From Planosporangium thailandense (GTDB lineage Bacteria > Actinomycetota > Actinomycetes > Mycobacteriales > Micromonosporaceae), in NCBI RefSeq assembly GCF_011947195.1, contig NZ_JAATVY010000002.1:310001-374000 (forward strand): a stretch of DNA of 64,000 nt, in the 5' to 3' direction. Shown piece after piece: positions 8,147-50,782 of the stretch. The translations under genes and the position numbers were made by a program. The notes under the pieces are model-generated. The model saw nothing but the letters and a program-made list of their open reading frames with translations, ran no database searches and was not told the origin of the DNA. Numbering within the stretch: the stretch's first letter is position 1; each line of letters opens with the position of its first letter.

Positions 8147-9547
8147 ATGATCGTCTCGTCCCGGCGACGTCGTATGCCCTACGAGGACTCCGGCCCGCGC
8201 GGTTACGCCCTGCTGCCCCGAGGCCTCGCCGCGGTGGGCGCGGTGGCGCTCACCCTGTCGCTGGCCGCGTGTGGAGCCGGCGCGAGCGCCAGTGTCCCGT
8301 TCGCCGATACGCCGCAGTGCGCGCCGTACAAGCAGTACCAGGGCCATTCGGGCACCACGGTGACGTGGAGCACCGGCGGTGGCAGCGACAACGAAACGAA
8401 CGGGTACCGCCAGGCGGTGCGTACCTTCTCCGACTGCACCGGGATCCTGATCAACTACTACATCGATCCCAAGGTCAACTCGGAGAAGGACCTCATCGAA
8501 CTGATCGACTCCGGTAAGGCTTCGGACCTGCTTGGTGTCGGGCCCGGTACGTTGACCGACCTGGCCGCCGCCAAGAAGATCAAGACGCTTTCGGCGCAGG
8601 CCAAAGCCAACGTGACGAAGGGCTGGTCGTCCGACTGGCAGAACTACGCCAGCGCCGGCGGCACGCTCTACGGCATCCCGAACGACGCCGCCGTCAAGTC
8701 GTTCGTCTGGTACTCGCCCAGCTACTTCAAGGAGCACGGCTACCAGGTGCCGCAGACGTGGGACGAGATGATCGCGCTGAGCGACAAGATCGCTGCCACC
8801 GGGATCAAGCCGTGGTGCGCCGGCATCGAATCGGGCGCCGCCACCGGCTGGCCGGCCACCGACTGGATGGAAGAGGTCATGCTCCGGCTGGAAGGCCCCG
8901 AGATCTACGACCAGTGGGTGGCCCACAAGATTCCGTTCAACGACCCGAAGGTACTGGACGTGGCGAACAGGGTCGCCACGATCCTGAAGAACCCCGCGTA
9001 CGTCAACGGCGGCCTCGGTGACGTCAAGAGCGTCGCCACCACCGCCTTCGGCGACGCCGGGCTGCCGATCCTGGCCGGCAAGTGCGCGCTGCACCAGCAG
9101 GCCTCGTTCTACGCCAACATGTGGCCGCGTGGGACCAACGTCTCCCCGGACGGCGACGTCTACGCGTTCTACGAACCGCCGATCGACCCCGCCAAGGGCA
9201 AGCCGGTCGAGGCCGGCGGCGGCTTCGTGGTGGCGACCTCGACGCGGCCCGAGGTGCAGGCGGTCCAGGCGTTCCTGTCCAGCAGGGATTTCGCCACCAG
9301 TCGGGTGAAGGTCGGCGGCTTCGTGTCCGCCAACAAGCTCGTCGATTTGAACAGCTACGACAACCCGATCGACAAGCTGTCGGCCCAGATCCTCCGCGAC
9401 CCGAACGCGGTCATCCGCTTCGACGGCTCGGACGCGATGCCTGCCGCCGTCGGCAACGGGACGTTCTGGACCGAGATGACCGCCTGGATCAACGGCAAGG
9501 ACACCAAGTCCATGCTCGACGCGATCGAGGCGTCCTGGCCGAAGTAG
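8147..9547 (+). CDS. Sugar-type ABC substrate-binding lipoprotein without permease
   Basis: The 466-residue extracellular solute-binding protein (family 1/MalE-like fold) has an unusually long N-region with an arginine cluster before the signal helix and a lipobox LAAC at about residue 42. The mature part has typical features such as GIPNDAAVKSFVWYSP, and PQTWDEMIAL in the hinge region. GGGGGAA at 8136-8142 serves the ATG at 8147. No permease or ATPase gene follows; a strong terminator does. It lies 73 bases after the chemoreceptor gene, so it may act as the periplasmic ligand adaptor for chemotaxis or pair with a distant transporter. Confidence 0.9.
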   Translation: MIVSSRRRRMPYEDSGPRGYALLPRGLAAVGAVALTLSLAACGAGASASVPFADTPQCAPYKQYQGHSGTTVTWSTGGGSDNETNGYRQAVRTFSDCTGILINYYIDPKVNSEKDLIELIDSGKASDLLGVGPGTLTDLAAAKKIKTLSAQAKANVTKGWSSDWQNYASAGGTLYGIPNDAAVKSFVWYSPSYFKEHGYQVPQTWDEMIALSDKIAATGIKPWCAGIESGAATGWPATDWMEEVMLRLEGPEIYDQWVAHKIPFNDPKVLDVANRVATILKNPAYVNGGLGDVKSVATTAFGDAGLPILAGKCALHQQASFYANMWPRGTNVSPDGDVYAFYEPPIDPAKGKPVEAGGGFVVATSTRPEVQAVQAFLSSRDFATSRVKVGGFVSANKLVDLNSYDNPIDKLSAQILRDPNAVIRFDGSDAMPAAVGNGTFWTEMTAWINGKDTKSMLDAIEASWPK

Positions 9548-9580
9548 CGCCGGATCGGCCGGACAACCGCAGAACGTACG

Positions 9581-9619
9581 ACGGCCGCGGGCCCCGCCGA
9601 GTGCGGGGCCCGCGGCCGT
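9581..9619 (+). terminator. Strong hairpin after the binding-protein gene
   Basis: A perfect 17-base-pair stem (9581-9597 with 9603-9619) encloses a five-base loop (CGAGT). It lies 33 bases after the stop of the binding-protein gene. There is no long T-run, which is usual for actinomycete terminators. Confidence 0.75.
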
Positions 9620-9743
9620 TACGGGTAAGGGGACGTCTTGTCCTACGAGCCGTCCCGGTGCCGATCGGCTGCGCCCAGAAAGCACCAGAATGCTGCCTTT
9701 TTGACGGCAGCGCGAGGAGCCGGTGTCCGTGTACCGTGACGGC

Positions 9744-10427
9744 ATGGGAGAGGGGGCGACCAAGCGGGACGCGCGATTCAACGCGCCGCTGATGACCGCC
9801 CAAGAGGCGGGTGTTCACCTCGGAATAGCGCCGACCACGATCAAGAAGTGGTTGAGGCTGGCGCCCGAGGGTGGGGCGCCTGTCATGCACTCCGTCCCGC
9901 CACCGAGCGCCCATGGTCCGCGAATTCCATTTATCGCGCTGGCTGAGGCCCAAATCTTGCGCGAGTTGCGTAACACCGGCCTTTCCATGCAGGCCATCCG
10001 AGCAGGCGTTGCGAAGCTGCGGAAAGACACTGGCGAGGAGTATGTGCTCGCCACACGCACCATCGCATCGGACGGTGGTGAGCTGCTCTACAACGCGGCA
10101 ACCAAGGTCGCGCCAGAGTGGGTACGAGCTCGAGACGGCCAGGGAACTCTGCGCCAGGTTGTCGACAACCTGCTGAAGTACGTGCACTATGCGCCGGACG
10201 GGTTCGCCGATCGGCTGGTGCTCAAGCCTTACGGGGCAGCGGATGTCGTTGTTGATCCGCGTTTCGCATTTGGCCAGCCTGTTATAGAGCGCAACAAGAT
10301 CCGCGTCGAGACCATAGCTGACCTGTTCTACGCCGGTGAGTCGGTCGAGGTCATCGCGGATGAGTTCGACCTGGACGTCAACGAGGTCGAGTCGATCATT
10401 CGGGTCCTAGGACGACGCGCTGCCTGA
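9744..10427 (+). CDS. DUF433-type antitoxin with MerR-like N-terminal helix-turn-helix
   Basis: This 227-residue protein has an N-terminal DNA-binding region (about 10-40, LGIAPTTIKKWLRL) and a C-terminal DUF433 domain (about 150-227), containing GQPVIERNKIRVETIADLF and ending in a second helix-turn-helix (VEVIADEFDLDVNEVESII). DUF433 proteins are antitoxins of type II systems paired with PIN-like VapC45-type toxins, and a broken toxin of that kind follows directly. ATG 9744 has a TACCGT box at 9732-9737 and no Shine-Dalgarno. Codon use is less GC-rich than in neighbours, consistent with acquisition. Confidence 0.8.
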   Translation: MGEGATKRDARFNAPLMTAQEAGVHLGIAPTTIKKWLRLAPEGGAPVMHSVPPPSAHGPRIPFIALAEAQILRELRNTGLSMQAIRAGVAKLRKDTGEEYVLATRTIASDGGELLYNAATKVAPEWVRARDGQGTLRQVVDNLLKYVHYAPDGFADRLVLKPYGAADVVVDPRFAFGQPVIERNKIRVETIADLFYAGESVEVIADEFDLDVNEVESIIRVLGRRAA

Positions 10428-10810
10428 ATTCCTAGCCGACCGTGACCTCGGCAAACGCGTCGTTGAGGCGCTGCGCGCCGCAGGCGCGGTGGTGCACACG
10501 CTCCCGGAGGTGTTCGGCGAGGAAGGCGCCCAGCTGGCGGCCGACACCGAATGGATCGCTGTTGCTGGCCGATATGGCTGGGTCGCACTGTCGAAGAACA
10601 AACGGATCCGCTACGTGACTGCCGAGCGTGAGGCTCTCGCTGCGCATGGTGTGCCGCTCCGCGCTCGTCAATGGCAGCCTGGACCTGAAGGCGATGGCAG
10701 ATGCCTTCCTGGCGGCTCTGCCTCGCATCGTCGATCTGTGCTCGACCCCGCTCGGCGGTTCTGTATGGATCGTGCACCGTGATGGTCGGGTCGAGCGGCA
10801 GTGGCCGTAG
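10420..10810 (+). pseudogene. PIN-like (VapC45-type) toxin, frameshifted
   Basis: Overlapping the antitoxin stop, a frame reads PEFLADRDLGKRVVEALRAA and later WVALSKNKRIRYVTAERE, typical of PIN-like toxins partnered with DUF433. It has no ATG, GTG or TTG start at its 5' end. CTG at 10420 with AGGA 7 bases upstream is the best candidate. Near 10657-10661 the homologous reading moves by one base: upstream coding ends ...AAHGVPL and the natural continuation ALVNGSLDLKAMADAF lies in the next frame, running to TAG at 10808-10810. An extra base in CTCCGCG would explain it. The toxin is probably inactive, unless this is a sequencing error. Confidence 0.7.
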
Positions 10811-10839
10811 AAGAAGAGCCCGCCGGTCGACTCACTCAC

Positions 10840-11391
10840 TCACAGGAGCTCGGCCGGGTCGAGCGTCAGCGGGAACGGATCATCGGAGCGCCAGACCTGA
10901 CCGGGCCGCACGACCGCGCGGTCGACGTAGCTGTCGCCGTCGAGCGTGAGTACGGTCAGTTTCCGGTCTTTCGGGTCGACGATCCAGTACTGCGGGATGC
11001 CGCCGGCCGCGTAGTAGTGCCGCTTGAGCACGAGGTCGTTGCCGGGGTTGGACGGCGACAGCACCTCGACGGCGAACAGCACGTCGTCCTGGTCGAGCTG
11101 GTCGGTGTCCTTGTCGAGAGCGGCGGCGTGGAGCACACAGAGATCCGGGATGAAGAAGGTTCGCCGGCCGTGGATGGTCACCCCGACGTTCTCCGCGATT
11201 TCGAGGTCGGCGGGCACCTGGCGGAATAGAAGGTGGTGCAGCCGGGTGACGGCGCGGAGGTGGGGCATGGCGGGCGGAGGGTTCACCAGGATGCTCCCGT
11301 CGAACAGCTCGTAGCGCACGCCCAACTCAGGGAACCGGTACAGGTCGTCGACCGTCCAGCCGGTCATCGGGGGTACGAGGGACACGGTCAT
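10840..11391 (-). CDS. Uma2-family (DUF820) putative endonuclease
   Basis: The 183-residue protein has the PD-(D/E)XK-like core of the Uma2 family: YELFDGSILV, then FIPDLCVL, then VLFAVEVLSPSN, and later YYAAGGIPQYWIVDP. The acidic residues in PDL and VEV correspond to the usual metal-binding positions. The biological role of Uma2 proteins is unresolved. ATG 11391 is chosen because GGAGG lies 8 bases upstream; ATG 11406 in the same frame lacks one. It sits between the toxin remnant and a divergent ABC transporter, in a patch that looks accessory. Confidence 0.85.
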   Translation of the reverse strand: MTVSLVPPMTGWTVDDLYRFPELGVRYELFDGSILVNPPPAMPHLRAVTRLHHLLFRQVPADLEIAENVGVTIHGRRTFFIPDLCVLHAAALDKDTDQLDQDDVLFAVEVLSPSNPGNDLVLKRHYYAAGGIPQYWIVDPKDRKLTVLTLDGDSYVDRAVVRPGQVWRSDDPFPLTLDPAELL

Positions 11392-11480
11392 CGTCACGAC
11401 CTCCATCCTGGTGGAGCGGCCGACGGTTTCGGCGGTTGTCCACAGGCCACTGTACTTGTCCACAGTTGCCGACCGGAGGC

Positions 11481-11513
11481 TTGACAACACGGCGTGCACG
11501 GGCGGGATACCGT
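11481..11513 (+). promoter_or_regulatory. Promoter of the ABC exporter operon
   Basis: A perfect -35 TTGACA lies at 11481-11486. A TACCGT -10-like box lies at 11508-11513, six bases before the GTG at 11520. The spacing between the boxes (21 bases) is longer than usual, so a variant -10 starting near 11505 is also possible. Either way transcription would start at or next to the start codon. Confidence 0.5.
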
Positions 11514-11519
11514 CGAGCG

Positions 11520-12272
11520 GTGACCGATAACGCACTCGTACTGCGGGGGCTCGTCAAGCGGTTCGACGGTCTCACCGCGGTCGGTGGCGTCGATCTCTAC
11601 GTACCCACCGGATCGTTCTTCGGGCTGCTCGGCCCCAACGGAGCGGGCAAGACCACCACGCTGTCCATGGCGGTCGGGCTGCTGCGCCCGGACGCCGGCA
11701 CGGTCGCCGTCCTCGGTCACGACGTGTGGTCCGACCCGGTCACCGCCAAGCGGCTGCTGGGCGCGCTGCCCGACCCGGTCCGGACGTTCGACCGGCTCTC
11801 CGGCAGCGAACTGCTCGCGTACATCGGGCTGCTGCGCGGCATGGACGCAGCCGTGGTCGACGCGCGCGCGGCCGAACTCCTCGACGTGCTCGGCCTCGCC
11901 GACGCCGGTCGTACCCTCGTCGTCGACTACTCGGCCGGGATGAAGAAGAAGATCGGGCTGGCCTGCGCGCTCCTGCACGCGCCCCGGCTGCTCGTACTCG
12001 ACGAGCCGTTCGAGGCCGTCGACCCGGTCTCCGGGGCGCTCATCCGGGACATCCTGCACCGGTACGTGGCCGGCGGCGGCACCGTCGTCCTCTCCAGCCA
12101 CGTGATGGAGGTCGTGGAACGGCTGTGCAGCCACGTCGCGATCCTCGCCGGCGGGCAGGTCAGAACCGTCGGCACGCTGGACGAGGTACGGCAGGGCCGG
12201 TCGCTCGAGGACGTGTTCGTACACGTGGTGGGTGGCCGCGTCGCCACCGGTGCGGAGCTGTCGTGGCTGTAG
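11520..12272 (+). CDS. ABC-2 type exporter, ATP-binding subunit
   Basis: The 250-residue ATPase has Walker A GPNGAGKTT (about residue 39), a signature-like DYSAGMKKK, Walker B RLLVLDEPFE and the H-loop histidine in LSSHVME. The signature DYSAGM departs from the canonical LSGGQ but is common in ABC-2 exporters of this type. The GTG start is leaderless. It overlaps the permease gene by ten bases, so the two form an exporter. The substrate cannot be told from sequence. Confidence 0.93.
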   Translation: MTDNALVLRGLVKRFDGLTAVGGVDLYVPTGSFFGLLGPNGAGKTTTLSMAVGLLRPDAGTVAVLGHDVWSDPVTAKRLLGALPDPVRTFDRLSGSELLAYIGLLRGMDAAVVDARAAELLDVLGLADAGRTLVVDYSAGMKKKIGLACALLHAPRLLVLDEPFEAVDPVSGALIRDILHRYVAGGGTVVLSSHVMEVVERLCSHVAILAGGQVRTVGTLDEVRQGRSLEDVFVHVVGGRVATGAELSWL

Positions 12273-40588: not shown

Positions 40589-41782
40589 TTGTCCGAGTTC
40601 ACCCGTCGGCAGGCGTTGCGGGTTTTCGCCGCGCTGGGCGCGTCAGCAGCCGCGGCGCCCATCCTGTCCGCCTGCAACAACGGGAGGCAGCAGTCTTCCA
40701 CTCTGGACCTGCCGCCCGTGAAGATCGGGCTGGTGGTGCCGCGTTCCGGCGTCTACAAGACCATCGGCGACGATCAGGTCAACGGCTTCAACCTCTACCT
40801 CAAGCTCAATGACCAGAAGTTGGGCGGCCGGCCCGTCACGCTGGTCACGGTCGACGAGGGGGAGACGGCGGCATCGGGTAAGGCCGCCGTCGAGCGGTTG
40901 CTCAAGCAGGAGCATGTGCTGGCTTTGTCCGGCGTGGCTAGTTCGGAGACGATGGTCGCGATTCGCGATCTGGTCGAGAATGCGCAGACTCCGCTCATCG
41001 GTTCAAATGCATCGCCGACCACCCTTCAGGGTGTCCGGTACATCTGGCGCACCTCGTTCGCCAACGACGAACCGGGCAAGGCGCTGGGGCGGTACGTCGC
41101 CGACAAGGTCGGCGACGGATCGGTCGCGCTGATCGCGCCCGACTACCAGGGCGGGCACGACCAGGTCGACGGCTTCCTCCAGACATACGGAAAGGACGTC
41201 GCGGGCCAGCCGGTCTTCACGCCGTTCAGCCCGACGCCGACCACGGACTTCACGTCGCACCTCAACAAGATCAAGAATTCGCAGGCGAAGGCCGTGGTGG
41301 CCTTCTACGCGGGCGCCGAGGCGGTGGCCTTCGTCAAGCAGTACCGGCAGGTCGGGTTGTCCCTGGACCTGTACGCGCCGGGCTTCCTGACCGAGGGGGC
41401 GCTGCTGCGCCAGGAGGGCGACGACGCACGCGGCATCTACACCGCGCTCAACTACTCGTCCGATCTGGACAACGAGGTCAACCGGCGGTTCGCCTCCGAA
41501 TACCAGAAGGCGTACAACTCGCTGCCCACCACGTACGCCACGGCCTCGTACGACGCGGCAGGCGTGCTGGACAAGGCGCTCACGGCCGCCGGTGCCGGCG
41601 AGCTCACCTCGCAGGGCCTCAACCTGGCGATCGGCCGGATCGGGTCGATCGACAGCCCGCGCGGCTCCTGGCAGTTCAACCAGAGCCGCACCCCGCTCCA
41701 GACCTGGTACCTGCGGCAGGTGCGCCCGGACGGCGCCGTGCTGTCCAACACCGTCCTGTCGCCGCTGACCACGCTGGGGTGA
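40589..41782 (+). CDS. LivK-type substrate-binding lipoprotein with Tat signal, no permease
   Basis: The 397-residue type I periplasmic binding protein has a twin-arginine signal (TRRQALRVFA) followed by lipobox LSAC near residue 29. The lobes are in normal order: N-lobe from KIGLVVPRSGVYKTIGDD, then PDYQGGHDQVDGF, then C-lobe features AFYAGAEAVAFVKQY and ATASYDAAGVLDKAL. TTG 40589 is served by CGGAGGA. No transporter subunits are adjacent. A membrane zincin follows within 50 bases. Confidence 0.9.
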   Translation: MSEFTRRQALRVFAALGASAAAAPILSACNNGRQQSSTLDLPPVKIGLVVPRSGVYKTIGDDQVNGFNLYLKLNDQKLGGRPVTLVTVDEGETAASGKAAVERLLKQEHVLALSGVASSETMVAIRDLVENAQTPLIGSNASPTTLQGVRYIWRTSFANDEPGKALGRYVADKVGDGSVALIAPDYQGGHDQVDGFLQTYGKDVAGQPVFTPFSPTPTTDFTSHLNKIKNSQAKAVVAFYAGAEAVAFVKQYRQVGLSLDLYAPGFLTEGALLRQEGDDARGIYTALNYSSDLDNEVNRRFASEYQKAYNSLPTTYATASYDAAGVLDKALTAAGAGELTSQGLNLAIGRIGSIDSPRGSWQFNQSRTPLQTWYLRQVRPDGAVLSNTVLSPLTTLG

Positions 41783-47127: not shown

Positions 47128-48783
47128 TCAGCGGCGTTCGCGCTCGTGCTCCGGCTCGCGCTGCGCGGGTACGCCACCGCTGCCGGCGTGCGCCTTCTCG
47201 CGCTCCGCGCGGGCGCGGTCGCGGTGGCCGTCCGGCTGTCCGGCGGGCTCCTCGATGGGCAGGAAGAAGCCACGGATGGCGGGGGCCATCCCGCCGACCC
47301 GGTTGACCCGCTTGGGGACCGTCCAGCCGGCGTACGGCAGCTCGCCGTGGCCGGCCTCGTCGACCGGGCCGAGGGGCTGGTGCACCTCGACGAACTTGCC
47401 CGACGGCAGCCGCCTGATGATCCCGGTCTCCATGCCGTGGACGAGGACCTCACGGTCGTGCTGCTGGAGCGCCAGACAGACCCGGTAGGTGATCCAGTAC
47501 GCGATCGGGGGGACGAGCAGGGCGCCGATCCGGCCGGCCCACGTCGTGGCGTTGAGGCTGATGTTGAACTTGAACGCGATCACGTCGTTGGCCGCCGAAA
47601 GCGCGAACACGACGTAGAACGCCACCGCCATGGTGCCCAGGGCGGTGCGGGTGGGCACGTCGCGGGGCCGTTGCAGCAGGTGGTGTGGCTGGGAAGGGTA
47701 GATCTTCCGTTGCTCCACCCACGGGTAGACGAGGGCGAGCACGGTGATGACCCCGACCAGCACCGCCCCTGCCCAGAAGGCCGGCGGGACGGTGTAGGGG
47801 CCCGCCCGGATCTCCCAGGGTGGCATGAGGCGCAGCGCCCCGTCCATGAACCACACGTACCAGTCCGGCTGGCTCGCCGCCGAGACGACCGCTGCCTGGT
47901 ACGGGCCGTAGATCCAGATCGGATTGATCTGGAAGATCCCGCCGAGCAGCGCCAGCAGCCCGGCGACGAACATGAAGAAGCCCGTGCTGCGTATGGCGAA
48001 GCCCGGCACCATCCGCTCGCCCACCACGTTGTGCTCGGTACGGCCGGGGCCCGGCCACTGCGTGTGCTTCTGTTTGATCAGGATGCCGAGGTGCGCCGCC
48101 ACGAGCGCCAGCAGCAGCCCCGGGATGATCAGGACGTGGGCGATGTACAGCCGGGGCAGGATCTCGGCACCCGGGAACTCGCCACCGAACAGGCTGGTCG
48201 CGAGCCACGTACCGATGACCGGGACCGAAAGGACGATCGCGTTCGCGATCCGCAGGCCGGTGCCGGACAGCGCGTCGTCGGGCAGGGAGTACCCGAAGAA
48301 CCCTTCCGCGAAGCCGAGCCAGAACAGGGTGATCCCGATCACCCAGTTGATCTCACGCGGGCGGCGGAACGCGCCGGTGAAGAAGATCCGGAACATATGC
48401 GCGACGATGCCGGCCATGAACAGCAGCGCCGCCCAGTGGTGGATCTGCCGCATGATGAGGCCGCCGCGCACGTCGAAGGAGAGGTCGAGGCTGGTCTGGT
48501 AGGCGCGGGACATCGGCACGCCGCGCAGCGGGGTGTAGGAGCCGTGGTACACCACCTCGGTCGAGGCGGGTGTGTACCACAGCGCCAGGAACGTGCCGGA
48601 CAGGATCAGGATCACCAGCGAGTACAGCGCGATCTCGCCGAGCAGGAACGACCAGTGGTCGGGGAAGACCTTGTTCATGGCCGCTCGCAGCGTCCGGGAC
48701 AGGATGAGCCGGCTGTCGAGCCAGCGGGTGATCCCGGCTACCCGCTCCGCGGTCGTGTTGCGGCGCCTGAGCGTGTTGATCAT
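47128..48783 (-). CDS. qcrB: Cytochrome bc1 complex cytochrome b subunit, isolated copy
   Basis: The 551-residue protein has the heme b histidine pairs in QIHHWAALLFMAGIVAHMF and LYIAHVLIIPGLLLALVAAH, and PDWY in the quinol-site region (PEWY in many bacteria). A long charged C-terminal extension follows, as in actinobacteria. It should accept electrons from menaquinol as part of a bc1-aa3 supercomplex. No qcrA, qcrC or ctaE is adjacent, so this is probably an additional copy. GGAAAGG lies upstream of ATG 48783. Confidence 0.93.
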   Translation of the reverse strand: MINTLRRRNTTAERVAGITRWLDSRLILSRTLRAAMNKVFPDHWSFLLGEIALYSLVILILSGTFLALWYTPASTEVVYHGSYTPLRGVPMSRAYQTSLDLSFDVRGGLIMRQIHHWAALLFMAGIVAHMFRIFFTGAFRRPREINWVIGITLFWLGFAEGFFGYSLPDDALSGTGLRIANAIVLSVPVIGTWLATSLFGGEFPGAEILPRLYIAHVLIIPGLLLALVAAHLGILIKQKHTQWPGPGRTEHNVVGERMVPGFAIRSTGFFMFVAGLLALLGGIFQINPIWIYGPYQAAVVSAASQPDWYVWFMDGALRLMPPWEIRAGPYTVPPAFWAGAVLVGVITVLALVYPWVEQRKIYPSQPHHLLQRPRDVPTRTALGTMAVAFYVVFALSAANDVIAFKFNISLNATTWAGRIGALLVPPIAYWITYRVCLALQQHDREVLVHGMETGIIRRLPSGKFVEVHQPLGPVDEAGHGELPYAGWTVPKRVNRVGGMAPAIRGFFLPIEEPAGQPDGHRDRARAEREKAHAGSGGVPAQREPEHERERR

Positions 48784-48885: not shown

Positions 48886-50244
48886 CTACGACTGGAACGT
48901 CATCCCCTCGTCCTTGAGCGCCCGCACGAACAGGGCAGACTCGTCGAACCCAATGATCACCACCGCGTCCGGCCCGGACTCCGCGATCGTCTTGGCGAGT
49001 GGCTTGAACAGGGTGTTGCGGTCACCCGGCGCGTACGTCTCCTTGCCCTTGTACGTGAGCACCTGGATGTTGCCCGCCTTGAGCCCGGCGGTGGTCAGGT
49101 CGGCCAGCACGCCGCTGCTCAGGCCCTTGCCGTAGGAGTCGTCGCGGGCGACGACGGCCACCTTCGCGGCGCCGTCGCGCATCACGATGTCGGCCAGCGC
49201 CTTGGCCTGGAGCTTGTCGGACGGGGCCGTGCGGAAGAACAGGCCCTTGTCGTCGACGGTGGACAGCGCCTCCGACGTCGCCGACGGCGAGAACAGGATG
49301 CGGCTCGCGGCGACCACCTTCGGCAGCACCGCGGCCGAGACGCCCGACGCGGCGGCACCGATGATCACCTGAACGCCGGCCGAGATGAACCGGTCCACCG
49401 TCGCCGAGGCGACCTGCGGGCTCGTGCCGTCGTCACCGTCGACCCACTCCACGGGCTGACCGAGCACCCCACCGGCCTCGTTGATCTCCTGCACCGCGAG
49501 CTTCCCGCCGGCGAACATCGGCGGACCCTGGCTGGCGAGCGCGCCGGTGTGCGGAAGCAGACCACCGAACTTCAGCGCCGTCGGCTTCCCGGTCCGGTTG
49601 GCGCTCGCCGGCGGCGGGGTGGGCTCGTTCTTGCCCGCGGTGGTGTCCTCGCCGGCGCCCACGAACTCGGTCTTGGCATCGTCGATGTGGTTGTCGCGGC
49701 CGAAGTTGAGCGTCGCGTAGCTGGCGGTGGACGGCTCACCCACGTCGGTGAAGCCGCTGCGCTTGAGTGAGGACACGCCGCGGTACTGGATGTTCTCGTT
49801 CTGGCGGATCAGGCCGACGCAGTCCTTGAAGGTGCTGCACGTGGTGCCGCCCACCGTGGTGCCCACGATGTACTTCGCGATCGCCGGGGCGTCGGTGCTG
49901 CGGGCGGCCTCCGCCGCCAGCGCCGACACGATCACCGCGTCGTACGACTCGCCGGCGTAGTTGTAGTCGGTGAGGGTGGGGTCGACGGCGTGGAGCCGCC
50001 GCTTGAACTCGTCGGTGAGCGGCGTGAGCGGCGTCGTGCCCTTCATGCCGGCGAGCACGCCCGGCGTGTCCTTCAGGAGGTCACCGAACGAGCTGCTCAT
50101 GTTACCGTCTGTACCGTACAGTCGGGTCTGACGGTGACCGGCCGAGCCGGCCGAGTCGGACGGCTTTGACGTGCCGCACGCCGAAGCGAACAGCACGGCG
50201 GTCAGAGCTGCGAACGTCAATGCCGTGCGGGTGACACGCCGCAT
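48886..50244 (-). CDS. Type I periplasmic binding lipoprotein with lobes in swapped order
   Basis: The 452-residue protein has a lipoprotein signal (Cys23 in ASAC). After a short linker, residues 38-198 begin RLYGTDGNMSS and contain ESYDAVIVSALAAEA, CSTF and CVGLI: the C-terminal lobe of the LivK-like family. A Pro/Ala/Thr linker (199-222) leads to residues 223-452, which begin KFGGLLPHTGALASQGPP and end DAVVIIGFDESALFVRALKDE: the N-terminal lobe. The canonical chain would run from the present C-terminus straight into residue 38. This looks like a circular permutation at the hinge. No permease is nearby. Confidence 0.85.
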   Translation of the reverse strand: MRRVTRTALTFAALTAVLFASACGTSKPSDSAGSAGHRQTRLYGTDGNMSSSFGDLLKDTPGVLAGMKGTTPLTPLTDEFKRRLHAVDPTLTDYNYAGESYDAVIVSALAAEAARSTDAPAIAKYIVGTTVGGTTCSTFKDCVGLIRQNENIQYRGVSSLKRSGFTDVGEPSTASYATLNFGRDNHIDDAKTEFVGAGEDTTAGKNEPTPPPASANRTGKPTALKFGGLLPHTGALASQGPPMFAGGKLAVQEINEAGGVLGQPVEWVDGDDGTSPQVASATVDRFISAGVQVIIGAAASGVSAAVLPKVVAASRILFSPSATSEALSTVDDKGLFFRTAPSDKLQAKALADIVMRDGAAKVAVVARDDSYGKGLSSGVLADLTTAGLKAGNIQVLTYKGKETYAPGDRNTLFKPLAKTIAESGPDAVVIIGFDESALFVRALKDEGMTFQS

Positions 50245-50365: not shown

Positions 50366-50782
50366 ATGGAAACGCTCTCACCGGACGGTTCGACTCCAGC
50401 GCTCGACGGGCTCGGTTCCCTGGCGGCCCGGATGGGCATCGAGATCGTCGAGGCCACGCCCGAACGGGTGGTCGGCACGATGCCCGTCGACGGCAACCTC
50501 CAACCGTACGGGCTGCTGCACGGCGGCGCCTCCTGCGTCCTGGCGGAGACCCTGGGCTCGATCGGTGCGGCGATGCACGCCGCCCGGACCCACGGCGGGT
50601 ACGCGGTCGGCGTCGACATCAACGCCACCCACCACCGGTCGGCCCGGTCCGGCGTGGTCACCGGGGTTGCCACCCCGCTGCACCTGGGCGGCTCGATCGC
50701 CTCGTACGAGGTCGTCATCACCGATTCCGCCGGTGACCGCCTCTGCACCGCCCGTCTGACCTGCGCGGTCCGTCGTCCGTGA
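50366..50782 (+). CDS. PaaI-type hotdog-fold thioesterase
   Basis: The 138-residue protein has the hotdog helix LLHGGASCVLAETLGSIGA, with the catalytic-type Glu in this helix, and the strand VGVDINATHHRSARSG. It hydrolyses acyl- or aryl-CoA esters, possibly 1,4-dihydroxy-2-naphthoyl-CoA (MenI-like) in menaquinone synthesis. TAGCCT at 50353-50358 makes ATG 50366 leaderless. Confidence 0.9.
   Translation: METLSPDGSTPALDGLGSLAARMGIEIVEATPERVVGTMPVDGNLQPYGLLHGGASCVLAETLGSIGAAMHAARTHGGYAVGVDINATHHRSARSGVVTGVATPLHLGGSIASYEVVITDSAGDRLCTARLTCAVRRP

Follow-up and report, generated by a model that had tools for sequence, protein, structure and literature searches.

A circularly permuted LivK-type solute-binding lipoprotein from Planosporangium thailandense and the recurrence of its chain order in related receptors

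The window analyzed here, a stretch of 64,000 nucleotides from Planosporangium thailandense, encodes a protein that is, with high probability, best explained as a whole by a lipid-anchored type I (LivK/Peripla_BP_6) receptor with a circularly permuted chain. In contrast to its canonical relatives, which consist of an N-terminal half A followed by a C-terminal half B, the permuted protein has the order signal, tether, B, linker, A. This order is an old, conserved rearrangement and no assembly error. It extends beyond one strain, being conserved in the family of the window, Micromonosporaceae (f1; f-numbers are family codes), and recurring in other families. Canonical relatives exist, the locus with livFGMH and polA is shared in four other families, two different cuts occur, and at least five changes of order are required on the gene tree. 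It is probable that one orthologous receptor has been permuted recurrently at two neighboring cuts, often in place and with pocket and transporter kept. Orthologues, separate alignments, and a confident structural model all support the core of the original prediction, namely that a LivK-type binding protein was circularly permuted in nature and that a linker now connects its former termini.

Gene and protein architecture

The gene and its upstream neighbor have the following features:

48886..50244, minus strand: circularly permuted LivK-type solute-binding lipoprotein, 452 aa (whole ORF)
50176..50244, minus strand: lipoprotein signal peptide with lipobox Cys23, residues 1-23
50128..50175, minus strand: low-complexity tether, residues 24-39
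49651..50127, minus strand: B half, residues 40-198, C-terminal in canonical proteins
49579..49650, minus strand: fast-evolving linker between the former C- and N-termini, residues 199-222
48889..49578, minus strand: A half, residues 223-452, N-terminal in canonical proteins; Peripla_BP_6 profile positions 2-216
50366..50782, plus strand: divergent hotdog (4HBT) thioesterase gene, upstream neighbor of the receptor

The ORF starts with ATG, with GGAGGGAG located immediately 5' of the start. It was originally described as a single open frame with no strand named; the frame is confirmed and lies on the minus strand, and the segment limits proposed at that time agree with those found on analysis. 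The lipobox reads ASAC and includes Cys23. The B half begins at the LYGTDGNM strand and contains the conserved Cys136/Cys142, and the linker is rich in Pro, Ala, and Thr.

Separate alignment of the halves

When searched separately, residues 39-198 and 223-452 match the same 19 canonical-order relatives in opposite order with 36-52% identity. The segment of residues 38-198, for which homology to the canonical C-terminal part had been proposed, is homologous to this part with 36-47% identity in the 19 relatives, so that the full LivK domain content is present. The canonical sequence order of LivK-type proteins is replaced by B-A, and the protein is their relative via homology, not via chain order. 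It is an example of annotation failure, as Pfam detects just half of it: the match to PF13458 (Peripla_BP_6; 122.4 bits vs. a cut-off of 31.7) spans residues 224-449 in the A half only and covers only profile positions 2-216 of 343.

In canonical relatives, the end of the A match and the start of the B match are only a few residues apart, as in the single ORF L127 with its A-half match at 105-322 (42% identity) and its B-half match at 330-471 (47%). Because A and B meet so closely in canonical ORFs, the termini of the permuted protein fall on one seam, and joining its C-terminus to residue ~38-40 restores the normal order almost without a gap, as had been predicted. Chain order was assigned to ORFs with a separate HMM for each half; 168 ORFs had the order B-A and 61 the order A-B, with several loci repeating one place.

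A second LivK-type lipoprotein is encoded in the window at 40589-41782 on the plus strand. Its normal order, also noted originally, is confirmed by a match of residues 44-364 to TIGR03669 positions 1-321 in line, which scores below the cut-off of that model. Several relatives have homologs of this paralogue at a distance of ~2-5 kb from their permuted gene. In addition, the own contig C40 carries three consecutive LivK-type matches at 8727-12045 (L002-L004) with open frames of 870, 952, and 404 aa.

Conservation and selection

A near full-length colinear permuted match is present in 42 of the 61 f1 genomes among 101 genomes searched, which provides the orthologues with the same order that the original prediction had suggested looking for. 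Three genomes of the window's genus code share the permuted order. From 374 relatives found by a pattern scan, the best 80 were kept as named loci. These belong to Planosporangium, Dactylosporangium, Micromonospora, and others, and we take the genera other than Planosporangium to be members of the Micromonosporaceae. Chromosome records account for two of the named loci (NZ_CP073720.1 and NZ_AP022871.1). A lipobox directly precedes the permuted start in 79/80 named loci, and the remaining one (L084) starts at a contig edge. Compared with three near relatives, dN/dS is 0.23-0.44 in the A and B halves, indicating purifying selection, and looser in the 24-codon linker (0.41-1.42).

Distribution and two cut sites

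Outside f1, near full-length permuted matches were found in 62/76 genomes of f16 and permuted matches in 4/4 genomes of f39. At E <= 1e-80, 10/85 genomes of f49 (one genus of 14, with one match being partial) and 10/149 genomes of f41 have such a match. A second permuted type was found in f68, f122, and f81 in a phylum-wide draw of 396 genomes. In f81, 121/221 genomes have a match of either order (E 1e-50), and 31 permuted f81 proteins were read.

The second cut is located ~22 positions downstream of the first. In the second type, the VYGVDGNMGNALGENF segment stays at the C-terminus and the N-terminus begins near LEGMKGTTPL. Proteins of the first type end at positions 214-221 of a 372-position canonical model in 42/42 cases, with the cut in the same loop across f1, f16, f39, f49, and f41. 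Those of the second type end at 239-242 in 33/34 cases, L281 stopping early. Cuts were observed only in the loops flanking the DGN strand-helix. Among loci L234-L303, no ORF with two A or two B matches was found. Three f16 genomes that also have the permuted gene encode a very diverged canonical paralogue (L218-L220; branch ~0.9-1.45).

Fold, lobes, and pocket

The structure prediction, which had been proposed as a further check, resulted in a confident AlphaFold2 model (alignment of 40 sequences; pLDDT 88.9, pTM 0.84). In Foldseek, this model had 551 matches at E <= 0.001, the best being of the LIVBP type, and it thereby matches the type I binding-protein fold. The top match, 4n0q (E 1.8e-12), was aligned over just 231 columns of the 452-residue model (TM 0.41 by query length), as is expected because a sequential aligner faces a permutant. 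The sequence match to 4n0q falls in the A half.

According to the description of the type I fold given for TpMglB-2, the chain has three crossovers between the lobes (PMC4990184). Each sequence half should therefore contribute to both lobes, and the term "lobe-swapped", used in the original prediction, would be wrong because neither half should equal one lobe. A position exactly at the interlobe hinge, where the cut had originally been placed, is not supported; the cut sits just before the LYGTDGN strand. Based on LIVBP domain limits, the first-type cut is presumably located ~25 residues before the second crossover. The second-type cut of the other families is closer to this crossover.

The positions S300, T323, Y371, E435, D46, Y101, and C136/C142 are nearly invariant in both permuted types and in canonical rows (the P_f1 group of 11 rows includes one f122 row that is also counted in P2). 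N48 and E99 are variable in canonical rows. Apart from the Cys pair, the conserved positions correspond to pocket-lining ones in LIVBP-type proteins. Since both orders share these pocket-type positions, the two halves would be expected to fold into one ordinary two-lobed flytrap with an amino-acid-like ligand in the cleft.

Gene neighborhood

In all 14 permuted loci read from f16, f39, f49, and f41, the permuted gene faces livF-livG-livM-livH, and polA follows on the far side; 11 of these loci have a response regulator and 11 a hotdog thioesterase (the neighbors in L148 were identified by Pfam). In canonical loci, livFGMH adjoins the gene in 11/12 cases and polA is found in 8/12 within the stretch covered, with polA and the regulator in a different order in L163 and L164. 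In second-type loci, livFGMH is present in 5/6 cases, being divergent in L306, and polA in 0/6 within the stretch covered. Thus, what appears to be the receptor of one transporter is a permuted protein in some genomes and a canonical one in others.

As a LivK-type protein, the protein of the window might bind a ligand between two lobes and feed LivHMGF, but livFGMH was not found beside its gene. Queries with LivH and LivM had no match anywhere in the window, no BPD_transp_2 permease was found on its own contig, and the covered flanks of 79 f1 loci contained no LivFGMH or polA homolog with >45% identity. One f1 genome (G018) has a permuted gene (L018) and, elsewhere, a canonical gene with livFGMH (L163). 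In f1, the receptor may serve an unlinked permease or act as an orphan sensor, which is the weakest step of the proposed model.

A divergent adjacent hotdog gene was found in just 17 of the 78 named loci with enough upstream sequence (one query, E 1e-8), and a role of this gene as universal partner was rejected. As a hotdog homolog is present in the livFGMH-polA locus of other families, the hotdog gene of the window is perhaps a relic of this neighborhood. Directly downstream of the receptor, at 47128-48783 on the minus strand, a cytochrome bc1 QcrB gene (NF050120) is encoded. A conserved link to qcrB was rejected as well, because none of the 80 named loci contained a qcrB match (E 1e-10).

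Number of origins

In trees of rotated sequences containing the first type and canonical proteins, three order changes are required (93, 92, and 74 rows). The first tree comprised 42 of 77 distinct permuted loci, hand-chosen for spread and including none of the 80 named loci, and it omitted the canonical loci L132, L133, and L135 as well as repeat loci; a further 18 rows were omitted from the 74-row tree. With the second type added, a 101-row tree (10/31 P_f81 and 8/20 C_f68 proteins; 28 listed loci omitted) requires five order changes. Among 1000 bootstrap trees, 939 need five and 61 need six order changes, so that at least five are needed in 1000/1000; this count is independent of root and direction. 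The permuted proteins form the groups f1+f16, f39+f49, f41, f81+f122, and f68.

AU tests rejected a single clade of the 42 first-type rows (p 1.6e-41), a clade of any two of the three first-type groups (p <=3.9e-5), and, again with 27 rows, one first-type clade (p 7.6e-6). The second-type proteins as one clade were not rejected (p 0.207), and four order changes with a single second-type origin are possible. All f41 rows as one group had p 0.094, with L205 placed apart. The cut sites by themselves imply a minimum of two events, unless one cut was moved to the other in a second step.

The half trees with 101 rows require five order changes for A and six for B. The f1 and f16 proteins do not form one group in the A tree, and the same applies to f39 and f49 in the B tree. 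Two canonical f8 rows join f1+f16 first in both half trees and lie inside this group in the A tree. In the 92-row trees, P_f41 is split in the A-half and B-half trees alike.

Alternative explanations

Besides the odd order itself and the status of the genome as a 114-contig draft, nothing points to a misassembly, a frameshifted relic, or random decay, and the likelihood of such an explanation is practically negligible. It was rejected based on conservation of the order in three same-genus genomes and the 80 named loci, the chromosome records, the one open frame, and dN/dS values <0.45 in both halves. Random decay, against which the original prediction had already argued, does not fit a conserved order under this selection, and long reads are unnecessary for excluding a misassembly because the family retains the order and other families have it as well. 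It is also very improbable that the protein is a chimera, in which halves of different LivK paralogues were fused in reversed order, instead of one permuted gene. Such a fusion might account for the A-only and B-only trees disagreeing in detail; yet, both 101-row half trees place the canonical f8 proteins nearest to f1+f16 and the canonical f41 proteins nearest to the permuted f41 proteins, and the halves meet at the seam with a precision of a few residues.

A single ancient permutation could have been spread by transfer, with recombination with resident canonical genes having overwritten both halves. This would agree with the first-type cut being in the same loop in all five families and with the mild similarity of the f41 and f49 linkers (mean z 2.5), which fits a shared origin of those two, contrary to the tree. 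However, the f1/f16 linkers are unrelated to the others (mean z -0.4 to 0.3), and a second cut site is present. Transfer alone is irrelevant on a gene tree, and each half would need a separate conversion; one first-type clade is rejected with either half on its own (AU test, p 7.8e-4 for A and 9.9e-4 for B). Furthermore, with L205 set aside, permuted and canonical f41 proteins group together in 1000/1000 bootstraps. A single permutation is thus improbable compared with recurrent permutation. An adaptive role of the permutation, in which moving the lipid anchor to the DGN loop alters the presentation of the receptor to the membrane, is less improbable but still doubtful. This anchor-presentation idea was proposed for TpMglB-2 (PMC4990184), and the repeated occurrence of cuts at almost one site in tethered lipoproteins would be in accordance with it. 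However, canonical members are also lipoproteins, with a lipobox-like motif before A in 83/86 cases, and adjoin the same transporter genes. Because both orders occur with the same transporter genes, most order changes were probably near neutral.

Possible route of permutation

The permutation likely proceeded via a tandem duplication of livK. The first copy would then have been fused in frame to the second, and the first A half, the internal signal peptide, and the final B half would have been lost. This route is suggested by the linker, the ends of which resemble, by eye, the C-terminal tail and the tether end of canonical proteins. We regard it as inferred only, since no convincing remnants of the deleted halves were found near 20 permuted loci. 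Neighboring copies occur in both orders. The locus L158 (7234-10700) has two neighboring canonical livK genes in one livFGMH-polA locus, which is the kind of duplication that a permutation would need. In L310 (G1298:C22, ~8764-11241), two permuted receptor genes are located in tandem with no adjoining livFGMH match.

Comparison with known systems

Among the literature matches listed, which include few subscription journals or preprints, there was no natural circular permutation of a LivK-type protein. The LivK-type permutation, its two cuts, and its recurrence were accordingly not found in print; permutation of a type I binding protein is itself known from TpMglB-2 (Tp0684), which has been described as a natural circular permutant of this fold and classified as 'Type Ic / Cluster Bc' (PMC4990184). 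Like TpMglB-2 as described there, the window protein is a natural circular permutant of a type I binding protein with an N-terminal lipid anchor and an order found in many relatives. In contrast, TpMglB-2 belongs to a glucose-binding MglB subfamily (PMC4990184) and the window protein to LivK/Peripla_BP_6. In the topology reported for TpMglB-2, the first three N-lobe strands are located at the C-terminus and a fourth crossover is present (PMC4990184). The cut there corresponds to ~residue 65 of EcMglB (PMC4990184), whereas the cuts found here are located past mid-fold at 214-221 or 239-242 of 372, with two cut sites and several order changes. For ribose-binding protein, engineered permuted halves have been reported, indicating that the fold tolerates rearrangements of the permutation type (PMC9815098); these constructs are artificial single lobes, whereas the window protein is a natural full-length permutant.

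The LIVBP/LBP structures 1z15, 1usg, and 4n0q share the fold and the A-half sequence with the window protein but have the normal order. The canonical actinobacterial LivK proteins of the livFGMH-polA locus (such as L127, L159, and L163) have 36-52% identity per half; they share the locus, as found in other families, and the pocket-type positions, and differ by the A-B order without an internal linker. To our knowledge, most discussions of natural circular permutants treat each as a single event. Here, several permuted lineages stand beside close canonical sisters in the same gene neighborhood within one family. If recurrent permutation holds true, these lineages amount to replicates made by nature in which the effect of chain order on a protein can be studied, and they allow a direct comparison of how permutation takes place (duplication and trimming), what restricts it to these two loops, and how it affects binding, anchoring, and docking to the permease.
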